Assembly (NCBI RefSeq): GCF_011250645.1
Contig: NZ_JAANNO010000014.1
Location: forward strand, 1 to 38,556
DNA from: Motilibacter aurantiacus
Lineage (GTDB): Bacteria > Actinomycetota > Actinomycetes > Motilibacterales > Motilibacteraceae
Direction of reading: 5' to 3'
DNA length: 38,556 nucleotides
Part shown: positions 15,472 through 27,714 of the stretch, in pieces
Position numbering within the stretch: the stretch's first letter is position 1
Layout: each line of letters starts with the position of its first letter
Program-made: the position numbers and the translations under genes
Notes under the pieces: generated by a model
Seen by the model: only the letters and a program-made list of their open reading frames with translations
Databases searched by the model: none
What the model was told of the DNA's origin: nothing

Positions 15472-15495
15472 GCGGGCCCGTCGGCCCGGGCCCGC
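15472..15495. terminator. bidirectional hairpin between lipoprotein and debranching enzyme
   Basis: GCGGGCCC (15472-15479) and GGGCCCGC (15488-15495) pair perfectly around an 8-base loop, in the 34-bp gap between two converging stop codons. Confidence 0.65.
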
Positions 15496-17630
15496 TAGGC
15501 CGGGGGTCCGGCCGCCGTGCGGCCCAGCAGGCCGGGTGAGGGCGTCTCGGAGTCGACGTCCACGCGGCTCTCGCCCAGGGGGACTCCGGCGAGACGGACC
15601 CGTCCCCACTCGCGCGGGGTCACCGGATGCGCCGCGGCCCTGCCGTGGGGAAGACACACGTCGATCCGCAGCAGCGACGTCAGCAGGCTGATCGGCGTCG
15701 CCGCCGACCAGGCCTGGGGCGAGCACGAGGTCGGGTACGGCACCGGCCGCGGCACGGAGCCCCGGTCGAAGCCGCAGAACAGCTCGGGCAGCCGGCCCCC
15801 GAACGACGCGGACGCGGCCACGAGGGCCGATGCCACCCGCTGCGCCTCGGGCACCAGGCCGTAGCGCACGAGGCCGGCCACGAGAACCGCGTTGTCGTGC
15901 GGCCACACGGAGCCGTTGTGATAGCTGACCGGGTTGAACGTCGCCGCCGAGGTGGCCAGCGTCCGGACACCCCACCCGCTGAACATCGCGGGGGAGAGCA
16001 GGTGCGCAGCGACCGCACGTGCCCGGTCCTCCGTGACGATGCCGGTCCAGAGGCAGTGACCCTGGTTGGAGGCCAGCGAGTCCACGGGCCGCTTCTCCGC
16101 GTCCAGGGCGAGGGCGTAGTGGCCGTGCTCCGGCAGCCAGAACCGCTCGTTGAAGCGCCTTCTGAGCTCCTCGGCCCGCTCGCGCCACGAGCCCTCCTCG
16201 CCCGTGCTGGCGAAGACCCGGGCGAGATGCGCGCGCGCGAGGTACGCCGCGTACACGTAGCCCTGGGCCTCGACCAGCGCGATGGGCGGCTCGGCGAGGC
16301 GCCCGTCGGCGAAGGCGATGGAGTCGAGGGAGTCCTTCCAGCCCTGGTTGAGCAGGCCGCGGTCGGTCTTGCGCGCGTACTCGACGAACCCGTCACCATC
16401 GACGTCGCCGAACCGCTCGACCCAGCCCAGGGCCCGGTCCGCGGCTGGTAGCAGGCGCTCCACGTCCGCCAGTGGCGCTCCCCACCGGGCGACCTGGTCG
16501 AGCAGCATCACGAACAGCGGAGTGGAGTCGACGCTGCCGTAGTAGACCGAGCTGCCCCCCAGTGCGCGGCTCTCGTCCATGCCGAGCCTGACCTCGTGCA
16601 GGATCTTGCCCGGCTCCTCCTCGCTCATGGGGTCGACGACGGCGCCCTGGTGCCTCGCGAGCGTCTGCAGCGTCGAGAGTGCGAGCCCCGGGTCGAAGGG
16701 CAAGGCCATCCAGCTGGTGAGCAGCGCATCGCGGCCGAACAGCGCCATGAACCACGGGGCCCCAGCGGCCACCACGTCTGAGCCCGGTCGCTCGGGGTCC
16801 TGGATCCGCAGCGCGCCGAGGTCGAGCACGCTGCGGTCGACCGCGCGGGCAAGTGCGCTGCTCCCGCAGTGCAGTTCAGGAGTCGTGGATCGCCAGTCCT
16901 GCATGCGGAGGGTCGGACGGGCTTGCTCGACGGGTTGGTCGAGCGGGAACGCCGATGCCTCCTCGTGGCCGTCCGACGACGCGAAGACCTCTACGCTGGC
17001 CCGCCACTGGCCGTGGGGCGGCACGATCACCCGCCAGGCGAGGGCACCGGGGACCGCCGTGGCACCCGCGGCGCGTACGCGGGTGCCACGCCGCCGGCTG
17101 CCCGTGCCCGCGACGAGCTCGAGCTGATCGCCGCTGCACCGGCGGTCGACGGCGGGCACCCGCCTGGGGCGGCCGTCCTTCACGTCGAACAGGTCGGCGA
17201 AGTCGGCGTCGACCAGCAGCTGGATCGAGATCCCTGCGGGCTCGCGCCCGTAGTTGTGCACCACCAGGTCCTCGCGCAGCCCGTTGGCGACCATGCGCCG
17301 GCGCTCGACGACCAAGGACGCGTCGTGACATCCGGGTCGCGGCGCCGCACGGGTGAGGAAGGTGGCCTCGAAGGGCTCGCCGAACACGACCGACAGCGGC
17401 TCCAACGGAAGGTCGTCCACGAGGAGCCGCCACGTGGAGACGATGCGGTTGTCGCGGAAGAAGACGCCTTGCGGGCGGTCCGGGGTGATGTCCCCGGCGC
17501 GGTCGCTGACGCAGAACGAGGATCCCTCGACCACGGTGACGTCGCCGGGGGACGGAGCGGAGGCCTCCGTCGGGTCGGCGTCGTGAGGGAGCTGCTCGGC
17601 ACGCAGAACGGAGAGGTCAGGTTCGGTCAT
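15495..17630 (-). CDS. glycogen debranching-type amylo-alpha-1,6-glucosidase
   Basis: 711 residues from the ATG at 17630; the frame is open further upstream but overlaps other genes. An N-terminal beta domain (about 30-250, with VVEGSSFCVSDRAGDI and DGRPQGVFFRDNRIVSTWRL-like text) precedes an (alpha/alpha)6 catalytic domain. Visible motifs there are MALFGRDALLTSWMALPFDP, NQGWKDSLDSI, EAQGYVYAAYLARA, SNQGHCLWTGIV and YHNGSVWPHDNAVLVAGL. This fits enzymes that trim alpha-1,6 branches of glycogen or related glucans in the cytoplasm. The start overlaps the preceding 79-aa gene by 14 bases, and no ribosome site is seen, implying translational coupling. Confidence 0.88.
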   Translation of the reverse strand: MTEPDLSVLRAEQLPHDADPTEASAPSPGDVTVVEGSSFCVSDRAGDITPDRPQGVFFRDNRIVSTWRLLVDDLPLEPLSVVFGEPFEATFLTRAAPRPGCHDASLVVERRRMVANGLREDLVVHNYGREPAGISIQLLVDADFADLFDVKDGRPRRVPAVDRRCSGDQLELVAGTGSRRRGTRVRAAGATAVPGALAWRVIVPPHGQWRASVEVFASSDGHEEASAFPLDQPVEQARPTLRMQDWRSTTPELHCGSSALARAVDRSVLDLGALRIQDPERPGSDVVAAGAPWFMALFGRDALLTSWMALPFDPGLALSTLQTLARHQGAVVDPMSEEEPGKILHEVRLGMDESRALGGSSVYYGSVDSTPLFVMLLDQVARWGAPLADVERLLPAADRALGWVERFGDVDGDGFVEYARKTDRGLLNQGWKDSLDSIAFADGRLAEPPIALVEAQGYVYAAYLARAHLARVFASTGEEGSWRERAEELRRRFNERFWLPEHGHYALALDAEKRPVDSLASNQGHCLWTGIVTEDRARAVAAHLLSPAMFSGWGVRTLATSAATFNPVSYHNGSVWPHDNAVLVAGLVRYGLVPEAQRVASALVAASASFGGRLPELFCGFDRGSVPRPVPYPTSCSPQAWSAATPISLLTSLLRIDVCLPHGRAAAHPVTPREWGRVRLAGVPLGESRVDVDSETPSPGLLGRTAAGPPA

Positions 17631-17856
17631 CTGCGCTGGGAAGGAGGTCGTGGGCCGAAGAGGTGGCAGGGTCGTGCGGGGGACGGTCCCCCGCTCCGTG
17701 CTGGTGCTGCTGCGTGCTGACGCGGAGAGCGGCAAGAGCGCGCTGCGTCCGGGTGTCCTCGCGGGGAGGGTCGGCGAGGATGCCGGCGAGCAGCTGCAGG
17801 GCATACACCACTCCCACGACGTATGCGGGAAGGAGGGCGAGCCCGTCCATGGTCAC
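17617..17856 (-). CDS. small membrane protein in the glycan operon
   Basis: 79 residues from a GTG at 17856 that lies inside the glycosyltransferase stop (GTGA); an ATG two codons later is an alternative. The start DGLALLPAYVVGVVYALQLLAGILAD is one membrane helix (about 6-26). The remainder is hydrophilic with a His/Gln run (TQQHQHGAGDRPPHD). The stop overlaps the debranching gene start. Being wedged by overlaps between two glycan enzymes makes it a real gene, possibly a membrane tether or partner for them; the function is unknown. Confidence 0.65.
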   Translation of the reverse strand: MTMDGLALLPAYVVGVVYALQLLAGILADPPREDTRTQRALAALRVSTQQHQHGAGDRPPHDPATSSAHDLLPSADDRT

Positions 17857-19001
17857 CTGCCGCGGTGGGTCGAGCGGCGCGCGCCAGCGGCGGTCTCGCC
17901 CGTCAGCGCCTCGAGGTCACGGGCGCCGTCGACGAGCGCCCGGTAGATGCGCTCGTAGCCGGCGGCCATGACCGGTAGGTCGAAGCGGCGCTGCGCGCGG
18001 TCGCGGCAGCGCACCGGGTCCAGTCCCTCCGCAGCCCGCAGGGCGGGGGCGAAGCCGGCGTACTCGTCGACGACGAGGCCGGTCACGCCGTGGTCGACGA
18101 CCTCCGGCACGCTGCCGCGCCGGAGCGCGACGACGGGCGTGCCGCAGGCCATCGCCTCGATCATCACCATGCCGAACGGCTCCTCCCACTGGACGGGGAA
18201 GGCGAGCGCCTGCGCGCCGGCCAGCAGTTGGCGCTTGAAGGTGGCGTCGGCCTCGCCCACGTACTGCACCCCGCTGCCCAAGCGAGGGGCGATCTCCGCC
18301 TCGAAGTAGGCCTTCTCCGCGGGCTCGCTGCACTTGCCGGCCAGCACGATCCACCGGCCGGCGGCACGGGCGGCGTCGATCGCGAGGTGCGCCCCCTTGT
18401 CGGGGTTGAAACGGCCGAGCCACAGGACGTAGCCGTCCTTCTCCGCCCGGAAGGGGAACGTGGAGAAGTCGATCGCGTTGTGCACCCGCCCGACCCAGTT
18501 GACGTCCGGGTTGAGCCGGCGCTGTGCGTCGGAGATCGCCACCACGTCGACGCTCGCGCCCAGCCTCCGGAAGTAGTCGCCCTGCTCGCCGTCGACCGGG
18601 CCGTGCATCGTCACCACCGTGGGCACGTCGCGCCCACGGGCGAGCAGCGGCCCGGCGAGGGTGTGGTCGTGGACGATGTCGACGTCCAGGCCGTCCAACG
18701 CGGCGGCTGCCCCGGCGGCGTGGATGACCTCGGGGGCCGGTGTGCCGAGGCGGGCCGACGGTGGCTCGTCGAAGACGGGTACGAACCGGGCCGCCTTCGT
18801 GGCGTGCCGTCCGGCGCCGACGAGCGTGACCTCGTGGCCGCGCTCGGCGAGCTGATCGACGAGGTCGGCGACGACGGACTCGATCCCGCCGTAGCCCCTG
18901 GGGGGGAGCTCGAACCACGGCGGGGCGATCATCGCGATCCGCAGCGGCGGCACCGCCGGGGTCACCGGGGTGTCGACAGGGGGTTGCAGCTGCACAGTCA
19001 T
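17853..19001 (-). CDS. family 4 glycosyltransferase (GT-B fold)
   Basis: 382 residues from the ATG at 19001, with GGAGG 6 bases upstream; an earlier in-frame start lacks this. The N-terminal Rossmann half holds APPWFELPPRGYGGIESVVADLVDQLAERGHEVTLVGAG and DIVHDHTLAGPL. The C-terminal half holds GYVLWLGRFNPDKGAHLAIDAA, then PVQWEEPFGMVMIEAMACGTPVVALRRGSVPEVV, where EPFGMVMIEAMACG is the EX7E nucleotide-sugar motif. It transfers a sugar from a nucleotide donor with retention. Donor and acceptor are unknown. It leads the operon with the small membrane protein and debranching enzyme. Confidence 0.92.
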   Translation of the reverse strand: MTVQLQPPVDTPVTPAVPPLRIAMIAPPWFELPPRGYGGIESVVADLVDQLAERGHEVTLVGAGRHATKAARFVPVFDEPPSARLGTPAPEVIHAAGAAAALDGLDVDIVHDHTLAGPLLARGRDVPTVVTMHGPVDGEQGDYFRRLGASVDVVAISDAQRRLNPDVNWVGRVHNAIDFSTFPFRAEKDGYVLWLGRFNPDKGAHLAIDAARAAGRWIVLAGKCSEPAEKAYFEAEIAPRLGSGVQYVGEADATFKRQLLAGAQALAFPVQWEEPFGMVMIEAMACGTPVVALRRGSVPEVVDHGVTGLVVDEYAGFAPALRAAEGLDPVRCRDRAQRRFDLPVMAAGYERIYRALVDGARDLEALTGETAAGARRSTHRGR

Positions 19002-19097
19002 GGAGGTCCTCCGAACGACGGGTCGTACGGGGGCCCGAGCCATCGCTGGGCCGTCCGCCCGGTCGGAGCGCCGCCCCGACCGGAGGGGGTACGAGGG

Positions 19098-19445
19098 TCA
19101 GGACATCGCCGGGGGCGGTTGCTCGCGCTCGCGGGCGGGCGGGCGCCCGTCGTCGCGCCGTCGTCCGGCCAGCTCGTCCTCGAGCTCGGCGATGCGCGAC
19201 TGGAGGGAGAACACCCGGCGGACACCGGCGAGAGTGAGGCCCTCACCCACGAGCTCCTGCACCTCCTGCACCTGCTCCACCTGGTGCCGGCTGTAGCGGC
19301 GCTGGCCGCCGCCGGACCGGGCGGGCGTCACGACGTCCTGGTCGTCCAGCCGGCGGAGGAACGCCTGCTGGACGTTGAGCATGTCCGCGACCTGGCCGAT
19401 GGTGAACAGCGGCGCGTGGGCGTCGTCGAACGGAAGAGGCGTCAT
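19098..19445 (-). CDS. MerR-family (HspR-like) transcriptional regulator
   Basis: 115 residues. The N-terminal winged HTH reads LFTIGQVADMLNVQQAFLRRLDDQDVVTPARSGGGQRRYSRHQVEQVQEVQELVGEGLTLAGVRRVFSL, followed by a coiled coil (QSRIAELEDELA) and a charged Arg/Pro tail. The pattern is close to HspR-type repressors rather than to metal- or drug-sensing MerR proteins, as no Cys ligands are present. GAGGAGG precedes the ATG. It lies 96 bp upstream of the glycosyltransferase on the same strand and could control that operon or stress genes; this is inference. Confidence 0.85.
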   Translation of the reverse strand: MTPLPFDDAHAPLFTIGQVADMLNVQQAFLRRLDDQDVVTPARSGGGQRRYSRHQVEQVQEVQELVGEGLTLAGVRRVFSLQSRIAELEDELAGRRRDDGRPPAREREQPPPAMS

Positions 19446-19623
19446 CAGGCCCTCCTCGTCGCGGTCCGCGAACGGGGTGCACCCGTCTGGGCGCGAACAT
19501 TACCACCCTGCCGGTGTCGAGGGAACCTCCCACTTGATGTTTAACTTTCCTGGTGAGCAGGAAGCAGCGAGGGTGCGGCCCCGGCGTGGGGCCTGCGGCT
19601 GCGCAACGTCGAAGGAGGAGCAG
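19446..19623. promoter_or_regulatory. divergent promoter region between MerR and STAS genes
   Basis: On the minus strand TAATGT (19497-19502) with TTCCCT 17 bp upstream (19520-19525) is a possible MerR-gene promoter. An AT-rich patch at 19531-19547 contains CTTGATG, similar to one half of the HspR box CTTGAGT. No clear STAS promoter was found. Confidence 0.35.
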
Positions 19624-20124
19624 ATGACCGTCCCGGAGCCCGGTCTGACCGTTGTGGCCACCACGGAGCACGACGTGCCCGTCCTCAGCGTGAGCGGTGA
19701 GCTCGAGGCCGCCGGTGCCCCGGTGCTCCGCGGCGCGGTGACCGACGCGCTCGCGCAGCGGGCACGGGGGCTCGTGATCGACCTGCGTGGAGTGGGCTTC
19801 GTCGACTCCGCCGGGCTCGGGGTCCTCGTCGGAGCCCTGAAGCGGTGCCGCGAGCGTGGTGGCGAGCTCGCCGTCGTGTCCACGACGCCGATGTTCCTGC
19901 GCACCCTGCGGGTGACAGGGCTCGCGCGGATCCTGCCGACCTTCCCGGTCCGGTCCGAAGCGCTGGGCCACGTGAGGGCGAGGCTGGCCGCCGGCCCGGC
20001 GACGGGCGGAGCGGAGCCGTCCCGCGCCGTCACCCTGCCGTGCCCGCGGTGGGCGAACCGGCGCACCCGCCCGGCCGTCCCCACCGGTGCAGCGCGACGC
20101 CGCGACATGGCGCCGGCGTCCTGA
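19624..20124 (+). CDS. STAS-domain anti-sigma-factor antagonist
   Basis: 166 residues; AAGGAGGAG precedes the ATG. The STAS fold spans about residues 8-112. It has DVPVLSVSGELEAAGAPVLRGAV, the phosphorylatable-Ser loop DLRGVGFVDSAGLGVLVGALKRC (Ser in VDSAG) and LAVVSTTPMFLRTLRVTGL. In the SpoIIAA/RsbV scheme the unphosphorylated protein binds an anti-sigma kinase and frees a sigma factor. No kinase or sigma gene is adjacent, so the partner is unknown. About 50 C-terminal residues form an Arg/Pro-rich extension that the family does not need. It is convergent with jetC. Confidence 0.9.
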   Translation: MTVPEPGLTVVATTEHDVPVLSVSGELEAAGAPVLRGAVTDALAQRARGLVIDLRGVGFVDSAGLGVLVGALKRCRERGGELAVVSTTPMFLRTLRVTGLARILPTFPVRSEALGHVRARLAAGPATGGAEPSRAVTLPCPRWANRRTRPAVPTGAARRRDMAPAS

Positions 20125-20162
20125 CCCGACGTCGAGCCTGCTCCTGCTCCCGCTGCCGGGGC

Positions 20163-20182
20163 CGCCGGGCACACGCCCGGCG
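20163..20182. terminator. bidirectional hairpin between STAS gene and jetC
   Basis: CGCCGGGC (20163-20170) and GCCCGGCG (20175-20182) pair perfectly around ACAC in the 68-bp gap between the two converging stops. Confidence 0.65.
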
Positions 20183-20192
20183 ACCGCGGAAG

Positions 20193-23100
20193 TCAGTTGT
20201 CGGGGGCCGCGCGCAGCCGCGTCACGTGCGAGTAGCCCTTCGGGGACTTGGTGACGGTGAGGATCAGCTGCATGGCCGGCTCGAGCGCAGTCACCTTGTC
20301 CAGCGGTGCGCCGATGATGAGCTGGAAGCCGAGCTTCTTCCAGGCCTGCACGGCTCGTCCGGCGAACTCGGAGTCGGACTTGATGAAGCCCTCGTCGAGG
20401 AACACCGGCGCGAAGCGGGGGAGCCGGTCCTCGTCGCCGAGCTGGTAGCGCAGCGCGGAGCCGACGATGAAGGCCATCAGCTCCTGCGTCTCGCCGCCGC
20501 TCTTGCCGCCGAGGTGGGCGTAGGTCGCGAGCTCCTTGCCGTGCCGGTCCACCCGCACCGCGGTGATCTCCACGTGGCGTCGCACGTCGAGGTAGACGTC
20601 GCGGCTCACCGTGCCCGGGCGGGCGTTGCCGTCGGGCTTGCGGATGAGGTCGATGAACGAACGCAGTTCCAGGAACCGCTGTTCGGCGTCCTCGTCCGTC
20701 GCCTCGCTGACGAGCCCGGAGGCCAGGCGGGCGAGCTGCCTGCGGAAGCGCACGACGTCGTCGGAGGAGATCAGGCGCAGTGAGATGCGCAGCCGGTCGT
20801 TCTGCGGGCCGAACGGCAGCGTCGACAGGATGTCGTTGACCGGGTCGAGCCGGGCGCGGATCTCGTCGAGGGCCGCGCCGAACGCGCCGGACAGCGGCAC
20901 GAGGTCCTGCCCGCTCCACTCGGAGAGCCGGCGGCGCCACTCCAGTCGCCGGTCGGCGAGCCCGGTAGCGACGATCTTGTCGAGGATCTCGCGGTAGTCC
21001 GGGTAGGAGTCGATGCCGACGCCCCGGTTGGGGTCGGGCCAGCGCGACTGGAACTGCTCGAAGATGCCGATCAGGGTGGCCGTCGCGGCCGCCCCGCGCT
21101 CGCGGGCGTGGGCCGTACGCTCGGACAGCCGGTTGCGCAGCTTGGTCAGGCTCCGCTCGAACTCGGCGATGCCGTCCAGGCTCCCGACCTCGAGGAGCAG
21201 GGCGTCGAGGTAGCCCTGCTGCTCGTCGGTCAGGGTGACCGCCCCGTCCGCAGCGACCCGGTCCACCTCCCGGGTGGTGGAGTCCTGCTCCTCGCAGAGC
21301 CGCTCGTACTCGGCGTCCGCGGCGTGCAGCAGGTCCTTGGCCCGGACGGCCTCCGCCTCCGCCTCGGCCAGCCGGGCCTCGATGCGCGCGTGCTGCGCGG
21401 CCAGGGCCGCCAGGACGTCGTCCGCGGCGAGGATGCGGCTCAGCTCGTCCTGCTTGGCGGCGAGCAGGGTGGAGGGGGTGGCGACGTCGATGTCCGCCCA
21501 CTCGGTCGCGAGCAGCCACCGGTGCGCGCTCTCCAGCCTGCGCAGGTGCTTCGCCGTCTCGTCGAGCGTGCGCTCCTGCGCGAGCAGGGTGCCCAGGTGG
21601 GCGTCCAGCTCGGCGATCTCGCCGTCGATCTCGGCGAGCCGGTCCGCCGAGGAGAAGCCGATGATCGACGCGTCCCCCAGCTCACCGTGGGACCCGCGGC
21701 GGCCGTTGCGGGTCTGCCCGTTGCGCGTCACGCGCGGCCCGCCGCCGTCCAGCTCGCCCGGGGACTCGACGCAGAGGTGGTCGGTCCCGCGCCGCGTCAC
21801 CCGCTCGCGGATCCACCAGCTGAACGGGCTGTCCTTGTAGAGCAGCTTGCCGGAGACGTAGCGGGCGTCGCCACGCTCCTCCACGTGCGGCTGCAGCTCG
21901 ACGCCCTCGAACTGGATGCGCACCGGCAGCCGGATCGGGTCGATCGCCCGCGAGAGGTGCTGCAGGCGGCGCTCGTCGACGAGCAGGACGCGCGCGACCG
22001 AGAAGAGGGTGACCTCGGCGGCCTTGCGCCAGGCCTGCTCCTCCGGGGCGATGTCGATCAGCTCGGCGACGAACGGCAGCTCGGACGGGTCGATCCCGGC
22101 GGCCTCGGCGATCGCGAGCCGCGCCTCGTGCAGCCGGCGCGGCACCCGGCCGGTGCGCCCGGTCAGGGAGTCGCGCTCGGAGACGAGCTCGCTGCGGCGG
22201 GCCTGCGTCGGCCAGCCCTCCTGGCGCACCTGCTGCTGCTGGGCGGCCAGCGCCTCGAGCCGGTCGGGCAGCTCGGTGAGGAACTGCTCGGCCGCCACCT
22301 GTGCACCGGCGAAGCCGGCTGCGGTCGTCAGCTCGAGCCCGAGGTCCACGGTGCTGGCCGCGAAGCGGGTCCAGCGCGTGTCGGCGGCGTCCTTCGCCGC
22401 CCGGGCCGCCTCGATCTCGGCCTCGAGCCGCTTGATGCTGTCGCCGCCCGCGGCGCGCTGGGACTCCTCGACGTTCGCGAGCTCGCCCTTGAGCCGGGTC
22501 TGCTCCTCGCGTGCCGCGCGGTAGCGCTCGTTCAGCGCCTTCTTCGACTCGAGGGCCTCCCGCGCGGCCGTCTCGAGCAGCCGCTCGCGGGTGTGCAGCC
22601 GCCACACCGAGAAGGCGGTGTCGCCGGCCCGCTGGGCGCCGAACGTGTCGATGAGCTGCTCGTCGGCACGGGCCTTCTCCCGCTCCTCCCACAGCCCGGG
22701 CAGCCGGGCGAGGGTGTGCTGCTTCTCCGCCGCGGTCTGCATCTCCTGGTACGCGGCGTCGAGGTCGTCGAAGTGACGCGCCGCGTTGTCGGCGGCCACG
22801 TAGGTCGCCGGCTGCTCCAGCACCATCGACTTGTAGAGCCCGTCGACGGTCCGGACCTGCTGCCCGGCCTGGATGCGGGCCAGCAGGCGCAGCGCCTTGG
22901 TCCCGTCGCCGCCGGCGCCGATGCCCAGCCGGTCGAAGAGGCGCTGGGCGAACTCGGCGTACGTCCCGGCGACGAACATCGCCGGCCAGCGCGCCGTGAG
23001 CGACCGCTTGTCGAAGCGCTGCGACGCGAGCGGCTCGAGCTCGCGCAGGTCGAGCCGGCCGTCGACCGTCGCCATCTTCATCGTGACGTCCTTGGACGTC

Positions 23101-23555
23101 GTCGCCGCCCGTGGCACCGAGTACGCACGCAGTGCGGTGAAGCGCCGGCCGGAGCCGTCGCTGAACGTCATCGCGAGCGCGCCCCACGTCGGCCCGTCGG
23201 CGCCGCGCAGCACCTTGTCGGTGAGCGCGCCGGTCTCGGCCTCGCGGCTGTCGTCGATCTTGCCGCGCAGGTAGGAGAGCAGGTTGCGCTGGTCGGGGTT
23301 GCGGGCCCGGCCGGTGGCCGCGTCGTTGGATGCGCCGTTGAACGGTGTGTCCGACGGCATCATCAGCGCGAGGTACGCGTCGAGGATCGTGGACTTGCCG
23401 GTGCCCGACGCGCCCGACAGCAGGGTGGCCTCGGCGTCGAGCTCGATCACCGTGTGGCCGTGGAAGCCGCCCCAGTTGACCAGCTGCATGGACTCGGCCA
23501 CCCAGCGGACGTCGCCCAGCTCGGCGAACTCGGGTAGCAGCGCGGGCTGGCTCAT
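20193..23555 (-). CDS. jetC: JetC/MksB-like SMC-family ATPase (Wadjet)
   Basis: 1120 residues. An SMC/MukB-like head is split across the ends: Walker A GASGTGKS (48-55) in an N-terminal ATPase lobe, signature GGKSGGETQ (about 1016-1024) and Walker B VFLDEG (about 1051-1056). Between them are long charged coiled-coil stretches (about 270-460 and 640-800) around a central hinge-like part. In Wadjet this subunit loads on DNA with JetA and JetB and extrudes loops using ATP; with JetD it cuts small circular DNA. Its start overlaps the jetB stop (ATGA). No jetD follows: the next gene is the convergent STAS gene 68 bp away. Confidence 0.92.
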
Positions 23556-24463
23556 GCACGCTCTCCTGCGGCGGTCTCGCTCGTGTCGTCGGTGTCGCTC
23601 TGGCCGTAGGTGTCGGTCTGGCCGTCGGTCTCGTCCAGCTCGGGTGCGTCGAGCCAGCCGAGGTCCTCCCCGGTGCGGTTGGCGCGCTTGCCGGCGCGCA
23701 TGTCCAGGCCCAGCTCGTCGGCGACGGCCTCGGGCGCTGCCGGGGCCTGCTCCTTGCCGTTGAGGCTCTCCAGCGTGCGCAGCAGCTCCTGCAGGCGCGC
23801 CACCGGGAGCAGCACCTCGATGACGGGCGAGACCCGGAGCCGCTGGTCGTCCGCGGTCTTGAGCAGGATCCCCGACCGCTGCAGCGACTGGACGGCGTTC
23901 TCCACCTTGCGGGTGTCGCCGGCGAGGTCGTTGGCGTCGGCGGGCCGGAACTGGGCGACGGCGGCCTGCAGCTGGTCGCGGTCGACGAGCACCGCGTCCG
24001 CGCCGTCGGCCCGGTCGGAGCGGTAGCGCTGGCGCAGGAAGACCAGCAGGATCGTCTCCTCACGGGTGTGAGCGACGTCGTGCAGCAGCGTCGGGAAGCG
24101 CCCGTCGCCCTCCGGCACCGCCTGCCGCTTGAGCGCGACCTGCGCGCGCAGGTCCACGTGCAGCTCGAGGAAGAGGTCGTTCAACCTGGAACGCAACTGC
24201 AGTTGTGAGTCCAGCAGGGTGCGCCACTCGGCGGGGTTCTGCTCCGCGCTGATGTAGCGGTGCTTGAGCAGGTGGACGAGCGTGCGCCGCTGCTCGTACG
24301 TCAGGGACCCCTCGTCGCCCTCGAAGAGCGACAGGCTGCGGCCCTCGACCTCGGCGTCCTCGACGACCCCGGGGCCGTCCACGAAGACGTCGGCCGCCGG
24401 CTCGCCGACGTCCGCGAGGCCGTCGTCGTCGGTCGGCGGGGCTGCCTGGGCGGGCACGGTCAT
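23552..24463 (-). CDS. jetB: JetB/MksE-like kite subunit (DUF4194)
   Basis: 303 residues from the ATG at 24463, with AAGGAG upstream. The core (about 50-230) shows [52 protein letters not shown] and [16 protein letters not shown], the winged-helix kite protein of SMC-like complexes that bridges the JetA kleisin and JetC. Both ends are acidic and probably disordered. The C-terminal ~30 residues are Thr/Asp/Gln-rich and encoded by an 18-bp tandem repeat (23591-23626). It overlaps jetA upstream and jetC downstream by 4 bases each, fixing the operon. Confidence 0.9.
23591..23626 (-). repeat. 18-bp tandem repeat at the 3' end of jetB
   Basis: Two adjacent 18-bp copies (23591-23608, 23609-23626) share GGTGTCG-x-TCTGGCCGT and differ at two positions. 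A partial third copy (GGTC) follows. They encode the Asp/Thr/Gln-rich acidic tail. Confidence 0.7.
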
Positions 24464-25986
24464 CGACGGGCTCCTTCGACGAGGGCGTCGGCATCGGACG
24501 CGCGCAGCGGGAGGACGGGCAGGGTGAACGAGCGGCGCGTGCCGTCGGGGCGTACGGCCTCGACCTGCTCCTCGGAGTCGAGCGCTGCGAGCAGGGCCTC
24601 GGCCTCGGACAGGTCGTCCGGGGCGTCGGGACGGGACCCGAGCAGCAGGTGGACCATCCCGAGCAGCTCGACCGGCCGGCGCAGCCGGTCCGGCAGGGAG
24701 GCGAACACGTCGGCGACGCTCGCGCCGTCCGGCGTCATGGCCGCGATGACCAGCGCTTGGCGCAGCTCGGCGAGGCTCGGGCCGCCCTGCCGGCGGATCA
24801 CGTCGAGGTCCGGGGCCGCCGGTGCGTTGTCGGACACGTCCTCGAGCGGGGGAGGCGGCGCGGCGTCGGCCGGGTCCCAGAACCGCTCGCGCAGGTGCTC
24901 GACGTCGACGCGCGGGGGGACGAGCTCCACCTCGACCGTCGCCCGCGGGCCGGCGGTCTGCATCCAGGCCTCGAGCTCCTGGTTGATCTGGCGCAGCACG
25001 GCGTCGAGCTCGCGGTCCTTCGTCACGTCGTAGTTCACGATGTGGGCGCGCAGCGTCGCGGACAGCCGCTGGCGCTCGCTGAGGACGTCGCGGATGCCGT
25101 CTTGGATGGTCTTGACCGTACGCCGGAACTCGCGCTGCTCGGCGGCGGCCAGCGTCTGTGCGAACGGGTGGGTGAGGATCACGTCGAGGTCGCGGCGCAG
25201 GTCCACGAGGAGCGGCTCGTCGCGCAGCAGCGCGAAGGCCCCCTCGAAGGCTCGTCCCTCGGGGGTCAGCTTCATCAGCGAGTCGGACTTCGCGAGGTAC
25301 TCGTCGATGACCTCGACGACCGGCCGGGACTCGTTGCGGAAGTCGCTGATGATCTGGCGGTGCATGCCCGCCACGGCCTCCTCGACCCGCTTGAAGTCGC
25401 TGGGGAGCTGCCCGATGAGCGAGTGCAGGTTCGTGTAGGAGTCGAGCATGTGGTCGTCGGTCGCGGGCTCGATCTCGCCGCCCTCCGCGAGCCGGTCGCG
25501 CTCGGCGGTCAGCTCGGCGATGTGGGCGTCCAGCCGCGCGATGCGCGCGTCGCGGTCCGGGTCGGCCTCGGTGGCGAAGCGGCGGACGACGTCGAGGATG
25601 GTGTGGATCCGCGACTCGCTGATCAGGGTGCGGTCCCGGGTGAGCGACTGGACCAGGTCCAGGGCCTCGAGCGCGTGCGAGGTGAGGCTGTAGAACTCCG
25701 CGCCCTCGTCGTCGCGCGAGCGGACGAGCCACTTGTGGGCGAGCCACTGCATGCACAGCGCCCGGCCCGGCCCCTCCGGCCCCGGCTCGCCGGCCAGCCG
25801 GAGCTCGTCGAGGTAGTTGTCGACCTGCTGGTGCAGGCGCTCGGCCGGGACGGTGCGCTGGTCCCGGGTGAACGTCGTGCGGAAGACCGCGAGGACCAGG
25901 GGCGCCCACTTGCGGTCGAGCAGCCGCAGCGTCGGCTTGTCGAACGCGTCGCGGACCCGGGTCAGCTCCGCGAGGATGTCGCTCAC
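24460..25986 (-). CDS. jetA: JetA/MksF-like kleisin subunit (DUF3375)
   Basis: 508 residues from the GTG at 25986, which follows a GAGAGG-type site; an earlier ATG at 26040 is in frame but lacks one. The start [38 protein letters not shown] is typical of DUF3375. A helical, charged middle ([24 protein letters not shown] and [27 protein letters not shown]) and a C-terminal winged part follow. This is the kleisin-like subunit that closes the JetC dimer ring. It heads jetA-jetB-jetC; its stop overlaps the jetB start (ATGA). A terminator separates it from the MFS gene upstream. Confidence 0.9.
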
Positions 25987-26095
25987 GTACCCCCGCCTCT
26001 CGTCTCCAGTGTGCCTGAAGACGGTAAGCGGTCGGTGCAACTTCCGGCGCCCGTCCCCGGCGTCGGGGCGTCCCCAAACCCGGCGAATCGTACGC

Positions 26096-26130
26096 GGCCC
26101 GGTCGCCCCCCGCGGGGGGACGACCGGGCC
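26096..26130 (-). terminator. MFS-gene terminator upstream of jetA
   Basis: GGCCCGGTCG (26096-26105) pairs with CGACCGGGCC (26121-26130), and C6 (26106-26111) with G6 (26114-26119), with only one bulged A. This long GC stem lies between the MFS stop and jetA. Confidence 0.85.
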
Positions 26131-26163
26131 ACGGCCGGTCGTCGACGAGCCTGCCGCGCCGGC

Positions 26164-27714
26164 TCAGTGCATGAGCACGACCGGCTCGGACGCCGGGCCC
26201 TCGTCGACCGGCGCCGGCTTGCGCTTCGGCAGCAGCACGGTCGCGACGACGAACGCGATGACCACCAGGGCCAGCGCCCACCAGAACGTCGACCCGAACG
26301 CCTCGGCGAGCAGCGGAGCGGCCTGGGCGCGCTGCTCCTCGCTGACGGCCGCGCTCTCGCCGATGCCGCCACCGCCGCCCGTCCGGTCGGCGATGGAGCG
26401 GGCGAGCAGCACCGACAGGACAGCGGTGCCGATCGACGCCGCGACCTGCTGGACGATGTTGAGCGCCGTGCTCGCGTTGGCCACGTCCACGCGGCGCAGC
26501 GTCTGCATGGCCCCGGTGAAGGTCGGCATCATCGAGAAGCCCATGCCCACGCCCATGAGGAAGAGCAGGCCGGCCAGCAGCCAGTACGACGTGTCGCCCT
26601 CGATCTGGGTGAGCCCGAGGAACGACACCGCGACGGCCGCGAGGCCGAACGGCACGATGCGGCCGACGCCGGTGCGGTCGGCCAGCACACCCGCCAGGGG
26701 CATGGCGACCATCGCGCCGATGCCCTGCGGGGCAAGCAGCAGGCCGGTGTCCATCGCCGACTCGCCGCGCACGACCTGCAGGTAGAGCGGGAGCAGGAGC
26801 ATGCCGCCGAAGACCGAGATGATCAGCAGCGCCAAGGTCGAGGTCGCCGCCGTGAAGACCCGGTTGGCGAAGAGCTTGAGGTCCACCAGCGGGGCCGCGG
26901 TGTGCAGCGCGTGCACCACGAAGGCCGCGAGGGCCGCTGCGCCGAGCACGACCGGCACGAGCACCTGTGCGTGCAGGAACGTGCCCTCCTCGCCGGACTT
27001 GGCGAACCCGTAGATGACGGCCGCGAGCCCCGGGGAGAGCAGGACCACGCCGAGCCAGTCGATCGAGTAGCGCGCCTGGGACTCGTCGTTGTCCAGGACC
27101 CTCCAGGCCAGGTAGATGGCCGCCGCGCCGACCGGCACGTTGATGAAGAAGATCCAGCGCCAGGAGAAGTCGTCGACCAGCCAGCCGCCGAGGATGGGGC
27201 CGCAGATCGGGCCGAGCAGCATGGGCACGCCCATGACGGCCATCACCCGGCCCACGCGGGCCGGGCCGGCCGCGCGGGTGAGGATCGTCATGCCGACCGG
27301 GCTGAGCAGGCCGCCGCCGAAGCCCTGCAGCACGCGCAGCGCGATGAGCGACTCGACGTTCCACGCGGCGCCGGCGAGGGCGGAGCCGAGGACGAACAGG
27401 AAGATCGACGCGAGGAACGTGCGCTTGGCGCCGAAGCGGTCGATCGTCCAGGCGCTCAGCGGGATCACGGTGGCGAGGGCGAGGGTGTAGCCCGTGACGA
27501 CCCACTGGATCGTGGTGAGCGGCGCGTCGAGGTCCGTGGCGAGCGCCTGCAGCGCGACGTTGACGATCGTGGCGTCGAGGATGACGAGCACCGAGCCGAG
27601 GACCACCACCGAGGCGATGAGCAGCAGCCGGCGGTCGAGCCCCTGGTCGGCAGGGGTGCTCCCGCTCGGCGCCGGCGGCGCCCCCGCGCCGTTCGGGCTG
27701 GAGATGTCGGTCAT
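26164..27714 (-). CDS. DHA2-family MFS multidrug exporter (EmrB/QacA-like)
   Basis: 516 residues with about 14 membrane segments. The DHA2 mark [13 protein letters not shown] is in helix 1, and [48 protein letters not shown] and [23 protein letters not shown] match motifs A, B and C of this family. It is expected to export drugs or other hydrophobic compounds by proton antiport. GGAGG precedes the ATG. The promoter region holds two palindromes (27795-27808 and 27863-27878), and no regulator gene is adjacent. The C-terminus is a short hydrophilic tail. Confidence 0.93.

Follow-up and report, generated by a model that had tools for sequence, protein, structure and literature searches.

The window analysed here, 38,556 nt of the Motilibacter aurantiacus genome, carries jetA, jetB and jetC, which encode the kleisin, the KITE protein and the structural maintenance of chromosomes (SMC)-like ATPase of a Wadjet-type complex. 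The draft genome (4.59 Mb in 62 contigs, completeness 98.8%, the window lying on contig 14) yielded no detectable JetD, the nuclease described as the effector of Wadjet (PMC10586767). On balance we favour the reading that the cassette encodes an accessory, nuclease-free MksBEF-type SMC complex, which would have arisen from a type I Wadjet system when jetD was lost, probably in an ancestor shared by the two Motilibacter genomes compared here. The genome of the window is referred to as G000 and the second Motilibacter genome as G003; other G numbers denote compared genomes, and L numbers denote extracted locus stretches with their own coordinates.

The jetABC cassette and the search for JetD

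An earlier note, made from the letters of this DNA, described three overlapping genes for a kleisin, a KITE protein and an SMC-like ATPase with intact motifs. This was confirmed, as the coordinates were exact (Table 1) and Pfam, PADLOC and, for JetA and JetC, PDB matches agree. Both the jetA/jetB and the jetB/jetC junctions are 4-base ATGA overlaps, the genes forming one operon on the minus strand. The Pfam matches were DUF3375 for JetA (2e-106), DUF4194 for JetB (2e-35) and SbcC_Walker_B together with AAA_29 for JetC, and the best PADLOC models were those of type I (JetA1 602 bits, JetB1 299 and JetC1 1321). The closest PDB chains for JetA and JetC were the solved JetA and JetC; JetB had no PDB match at 0.001, and NCBIfam gave no match for JetA or JetB and only an SMC match below the cut-off for JetC. 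The Walker A, signature and Walker B motifs of JetC are all intact.

The adjacent jetA, jetB and jetC with type-1 profiles as best matches correspond to the gene content of type I Wadjet, and an SMC-like ATPase, a kleisin and a KITE protein in one operon with no nuclease correspond to the MksBEF type. A further feature of type I Wadjet, a JetD with DUF3322 and JetD_C in the operon or genome, was looked for in the draft of G000 and not found, hence the cassette should not be filed as Wadjet. Labelling jetABC as Wadjet defence can mislead annotation.

The earlier note had considered the motor intact and the nuclease missing locally, which was borne out and could be extended to the whole draft genome and to G003 by the genome-wide search that it had proposed. 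Profile searches of G000 with JetD_C (PF09983) and DUF3322 (PF11795) gave no matches, the C. glutamicum control being positive in both, and the JetD of G073 had no match at E<=10 in five genomes of the order, in a search run without a positive control. G003 carries the same three-gene cassette (JetA, JetB and JetC 93, 78 and 91% identical) and gave no match in a JetD_C profile search; in one scan Motilibacter deserti was the only named relative with a JetC match, at 91% identity. The gene after jetC is a convergent STAS gene in G000 and an AraC-like regulator gene in G003, both unrelated to jetD. Remnants of jetD were sought with our own JetD profiles in 24 JetD-less loci, where the best E-value was 0.26, and in 9 further JetD-less stretches, where it was 0.19 (20 more loci were left out). 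Five clean JetDs went into one profile (Ds.hmm), and the broader D.hmm contained mis-extracted rows. Recovery of the input JetDs is by construction; outside their input the profiles recovered the JetDs of G238 and G030 (five-sequence profile) and of L092, L104 and L105.

We regard it as very improbable that a jetD is present and was lost in an assembly gap or overlooked. The 62 contigs of the draft and the uncontrolled search with the G073 JetD leave some room for this, but an unrelated convergent gene comes after jetC within the same contig, JetD_C is also missing from G003, and the JetD-less G379, G201, G386 and G302 are single-contig genomes. Moreover, the profiles that recover unseen JetDs never fell below E-values of 0.19-0.26 in JetD-less loci.

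A nuclease encoded elsewhere, one of the options raised earlier, was made unlikely by the empty JetD_C, DUF3322 and nearest-JetD searches. It also seems quite doubtful that JetABC is partnered by a remote nuclease that has diverged beyond recognition as a JetD. Such a partner would fit the stretch F[VI]DGPGV near the N-terminus of JetB, which is kept with its following residues in both Motilibacter genomes and in the JetD-bearing G073, while the preceding linker differs (read by eye, with no statistic); in this region of a type I JetB, JetD is reported to touch an IFDR motif (PMC10586767). However, any homology of FVDGPGV to IFDR is conjectural, and the stretch was not seen in the G079 group in an alignment by eye. 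Neither Motilibacter genome has JetD_C or a G073-type JetD (the DUF3322 search covered G000 only), no neighbour family recurs, and 67 of the 81 places in the 44-49% identity class described below lie in genomes without any JetD_C. By eye, F[IV]-type stretches of JetB were also seen in the JetD-bearing G020 and G116 and in the JetD-less G034, G186, G137, G247 and G280.

Table 1. Features of the jetABC cassette, in window coordinates
Feature	Position	Strand	Description
jetA	24460..25986	-	mksF-like kleisin, DUF3375, 508 aa, GTG start
jetB	23552..24463	-	mksE-like KITE, DUF4194, 303 aa, ATG start
jetC	20193..23555	-	mksB-like SMC ATPase, 1120 aa, ATG start
JetC Walker A	23388..23414	-	GASGTGKST, residues 48-56
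JetC ABC signature	20490..20510	-	GGKSGGE, residues 1016-1022
JetC Walker B	20385..20405	-	VFLDEGF, residues 1051-1057
JetB N-terminal stretch	24365..24385	-	FVDGPGV, residues 27-33, read by eye
Hairpin	20164-20170/20175-20181		7-bp perfect stem, 4-nt loop, no T-run; between the jetC and STAS stops, by eye

Distribution and probable loss of jetD

The JetD-less form is common. Of 393 Actinomycetes genomes sampled, 63 had a JetC match and 39 a JetD_C match. JetD_C was adjacent at 29 of the 69 JetC places, present only elsewhere in the genome for 7 and absent from the genome for 33, so that 40 of 69 places are without an adjacent JetD_C. For this count the second JetC fragments of G302 and G208 were dropped together with 14 weaker or partial JetD_C rows (<60 bits), none of them from genomes classed as having no JetD; that class still includes G062, whose JetC is a 0.7-kb piece lying at the end of a contig. 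Among the places at least 37% identical to the JetC of the window, 5 of 23 had an adjacent JetD_C.

A deeper survey covered 147 genomes from the genus of G079, with JetC in 91 and JetD_C in 20, and 83 of its 100 JetC places had no adjacent JetD_C. Seven JetC fragments and one JetD_C row of 25.8 bits were dropped here, G451 was scored as having JetD elsewhere from a partial 57-bit match, and the downstream side of G468 is close to a contig end. The proportion differed between JetC identity classes: in the 44-49% class JetD_C was adjacent at 5 of 81 places (not adjacent at 76, elsewhere in the genome for 9), in the 36-38% class at 3 of 10 and in the 27-28% class at all 9. The difference between the first and the last class gave p = 2.8e-9 in a Fisher exact test, a value which overstates independence because rows inside a class are related. 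Some genomes, G449, G486 and G487 among them, hold a JetD-less place and a separate JetC with adjacent JetD_C.

All 23 loci of the clade of at least 37% identity have JetA, JetB and JetC matches (the JetC of G302 is cut by a contig end and jetA of G073 is split), and JetA was matched in all 30 loci from the genus of G079. Within that clade the ATPase motifs are intact in all 17 readable loci of the 18 that are JetD-less, the 18th ending at a contig edge. Since so many relatives share the nuclease-free version, the pattern suggests a motor with a job of its own. A distant JetC (29%) in G229 (L072) had no JetA or JetB recognisable with the window proteins, and the two genes upstream of it cluster with other families.

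The JetC tree gives full support to the 23-locus clade, within which the five rows with JetD are dispersed, JetD-bearing and JetD-less loci being interleaved. The tree of 63 rows, for which the program warned of long branches meeting, requires a minimum of 9 changes of JetD state, at least 8 of them forced by well-supported branches, and under a loss-only model 21 losses. JetD presence is somewhat clustered on it, as shuffling gave a mean of 12.1 changes and only 3 of 500 and 8 of 500 shuffles were as low under two labels. The JetA and JetB trees broadly match that of JetC, with several weak forks.

The JetD and JetC trees have identical topology for the five JetD-bearing clade members. A comparison of 13 rows gave 6 splits in common out of 10 and correlated distances (Mantel r 0.92, p 0.0001); the disagreements involve G415, G073 and G184a as well as G405b and G475b, which are long branches. 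This agreement together with the scattered states indicates that JetD moved along with JetC in most cases and has often been lost. It may also have been regained or exchanged, particularly within the G079 genus, where G048, G480 and G418 carry JetD although nested deep in JetD-less parts of the tree. Pairs of JetC sisters, one with JetD and one without, occur inside one genus (G048/G521) and across families (G020/G034 and G073/Motilibacter), and such pairs are natural experiments on nuclease-free JetABC.

The nearest JetD-bearing relative outside the genus is G073 (JetC 71%), in which jetD ends the operon with a 4-base overlap with jetC; hence Motilibacter probably lost jetD. In the 35 sampled genomes of the G073 family the four other JetC matches reach only 25-27%. 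As G073 is the only near-type bearer in its family, horizontal transfer of the cassette at some point is likely. The earlier note had set close relatives with jetD at this locus, combined with an unconserved three-gene form, against its interpretation; G073 does carry jetD, while the three-gene form turned out to be widely conserved.

Selection on jetABC and the neighbouring genes

The jetABC genes are under purifying selection with no fresh decay. Between G000 and G003 the ratio of nonsynonymous to synonymous substitution rates (dN/dS) was 0.10-0.11 for jetA, 0.24-0.26 for jetB and 0.15-0.16 for jetC in two gene sets. jetA and jetC have a lower dN than the adjacent MerR, glycosyltransferase and debranching-enzyme genes, and the dN of jetB exceeds the MerR and glycosyltransferase values. 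In a listing of the compared segment which includes spurious antisense frames, jetA and jetC rank with the least diverged genes.

These values bear on the idea of a Wadjet system in decay, with jetD lost first and jetABC to go next. Such a course would agree with the jetA of G073, which spans two frames, with the fragmented JetC of G495, G510 and G414 (genus of G079), and with the JetD-less branch being slightly longer in three of four sister comparisons. We consider it unlikely, as the cassette is intact in both Motilibacter genomes at dN/dS of 0.10-0.26, and the complete sets of JetA, JetB and JetC matches in the clade and of JetA matches in the genus of G079 speak against it. The summed branch lengths (JetD-less against JetD-bearing) also differ little: 0.27 for G034 and 0.21 for G020, 0.22 for G386 and 0.20 for G048, 0.20 for Motilibacter and 0.24 for G073, and 0.34 for G186 and 0.31 for G116. 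The two reading frames of G073 jetA (L045 7085-8610) are a sequencing error or a real break.

There is no sign of relaxed constraint in the JetD-less sisters. Columns invariant with JetD and changed in JetD-less sisters, as a relaxed JetD interface would give, numbered 9-12 in JetA against 18-22 for the reverse, 7 against 9-11 in JetB and 26-28 against 36-44 in JetC, among the first eight sister combinations listed. JetC column 955 was rejected as JetD-specific; it lies in a poorly aligned loop, and the one column observed was matched by 20% of 300 random groupings.

An unrelated effector encoded next door, also raised in the earlier note, found no support in neighbour Pfam matches, PADLOC matches or gene clustering. 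The neighbour survey comprised 129 genes (at most two per side) of 34 loci out of 38 JetD-less loci with wide flanks, the near-copies G427, G404 and G517 and also G302 being left out. No Pfam family occurred in more than 4 proteins among the first 25 of 179 families, and PADLOC matches were scattered, the commonest model having a raw count of 4 of 129 among the first 25 of 34 families. The neighbours belong mainly to metabolic or regulatory families, and no defence island was seen within two genes per side of these loci. As candidate substitute effectors the genes downstream of jetC in four JetD-less loci were considered; by Pfam they are an SbcD-type phosphoesterase, a patatin, SpoIIE and a Mutator transposase, mutually unrelated. 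When all called genes of 31 loci were clustered, the largest groups other than jetABCD spanned 8 and 6 loci, their positions being scattered. In G092 (L057 10601-14748) the SbcD-type gene starts about 10 bp past jetC and is followed by a gene of 1001 aa, possibly SbcC.

In the window, the convergent STAS gene 68 bp past the jetC stop and the major facilitator superfamily gene upstream of the cassette were seen as described earlier. The terminator said to be shared by jetC and the STAS gene was not supported as an intrinsic terminator: only the 7-bp hairpin of Table 1 lies there, and a terminator scan of 20000-26400 gave no terminator-like site.

Predicted function and relation to known systems

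In the nuclease-free MksBEF-type complex that we favour, the JetA kleisin would link JetC dimers and the JetB KITE protein into a JetABC motor, and this motor would bind DNA and extrude loops by ATP hydrolysis. With no JetD on board loop extrusion would not end in cleavage, so the output would be folding, compaction or segregation of DNA, the predicted target being the chromosome, beside Smc-ScpAB. ScpA was found in all five genomes of the order, hence Smc-ScpAB is probably present in M. aurantiacus and jetABC would be a second SMC system. Among the options of the earlier note the condensin-like role is the best supported, as a role predicted from sequence evidence.

A precedent is MksBEF of P. 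aeruginosa, which lacks JetD, contributes to organising the chromosome and probably derives from JetABCD through loss of JetD (PMC10586767); a canonical SMC system is reported beside it (PMC7485682), as ScpA is seen in Motilibacter. Both cassettes have three genes and no nuclease, the likeness being one of gene content, and that of Motilibacter nests among JetD-bearing Actinomycetes loci. As JetD-less MksBEF is already known in Pseudomonas, the Actinomycetes cassette is best read as a variant of it. In the open-licence literature (titles and starts of abstracts, a scope outside which most structural Wadjet papers fall) we found no description of JetD-less JetABC in Actinomycetes; PMC10512200 was a further source.

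With type I Wadjet (JetABCD; MksBEFG in C. glutamicum, EptABCD in M. smegmatis) the cassette shares the JetA, JetB and JetC families, the type-1 PADLOC models, the closest PDB chains for JetA and JetC and the gene order of JetD-bearing relatives, and it differs in that no JetD was found in the Motilibacter draft genome; the C. glutamicum system includes the MksG nuclease (PMC10123090). Enterobacterial MukBEF has the same plan of SMC, kleisin and KITE without nuclease, and Motilibacter JetC has a weak N-terminal match to MukB. It is, however, far closer to the PDB chain of JetC (8e-46) than to MukB (2.5e-5), and Smc-ScpAB is probably retained in Motilibacter. The open question around Wadjet, MksBEF and MukBEF is how closely related loop extruders came to maintain chromosomes in some systems and to destroy DNA in others.

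Several observations weigh against a chromosomal role. The cassette is patchy, JetC being missing from three of five genomes of the family of the window, the near JetC type occurring in 1 of 35 genomes of the G073 family, and any JetC in only 91 of 147 genomes from the genus of G079. When the 4-kb flanks of 30 loci from that genus (of which only G048 has jetD) were compared by blastn, 400 nt or more were shared on the same side by 15 of 435 pairs and on opposite sides by 5. Within Motilibacter the cassette has been relocated, as it lies in the same orientation on opposite sides of a STAS-MerR-glycosyltransferase-debranching-enzyme block in G000 and G003. Few shared flanks and relocation are not what we would expect of a core condensin. 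Further, C. glutamicum MksBEFG acts on plasmids and makes no contribution to chromosome folding (PMC7083940), although the nuclease is part of the complex there. Overall the cassette shows the behaviour of an accessory unit.

The swapped region corresponds to window positions 15495-26040 and to L067, the G003 contig stopping just beyond the block. Reminiscent of Motilibacter, G135 (L053 11388-12320) and G175 (L055 3263-4167) share a neighbour sequence that is placed downstream of the cassette in one genome but upstream of it in the other. Family genomes without JetC gave no readable synteny for an empty site: the one match in G001 and in G004 was a distant debranching enzyme, and G002 had none.

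The patchy, relocating distribution is typical of accessory functions, and together with descent from a plasmid-restriction family and the parallel of Smc5/6, proposed to act on viral circles (PMC10586767), it leaves a minor yet real chance of nuclease-free plasmid interference. JetABC would then extrude and compact small circular DNA, which would be silenced or mis-segregated uncut. The lack of a defence island and the scattered PADLOC matches beside JetD-less loci argue against this, as does a JetD-less copy on a plasmid. JetC was matched in 15 plasmid records, three of which were inspected: a circular 220-kb M. fortuitum plasmid (CP089609.1) carries jetABC without jetD beside jetC, and on two linear Rhodococcus plasmids jetD adjoins jetC. 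The M. fortuitum plasmid is, though, above the Wadjet limit of about 100 kb (PMC10586767), and its jetA lies in two frames.

More broadly, we speculate that the Actinomycetes might hold a large JetABC subfamily with an optional nuclease, repeatedly lost and perhaps sometimes regained, whose nuclease-free form would exert stand-alone control of circular DNA by loop extrusion, as a non-cutting counterpart of Wadjet. In CP089609.1 the jetA sequence (L103 3770-5274) is annotated as two overlapping genes.

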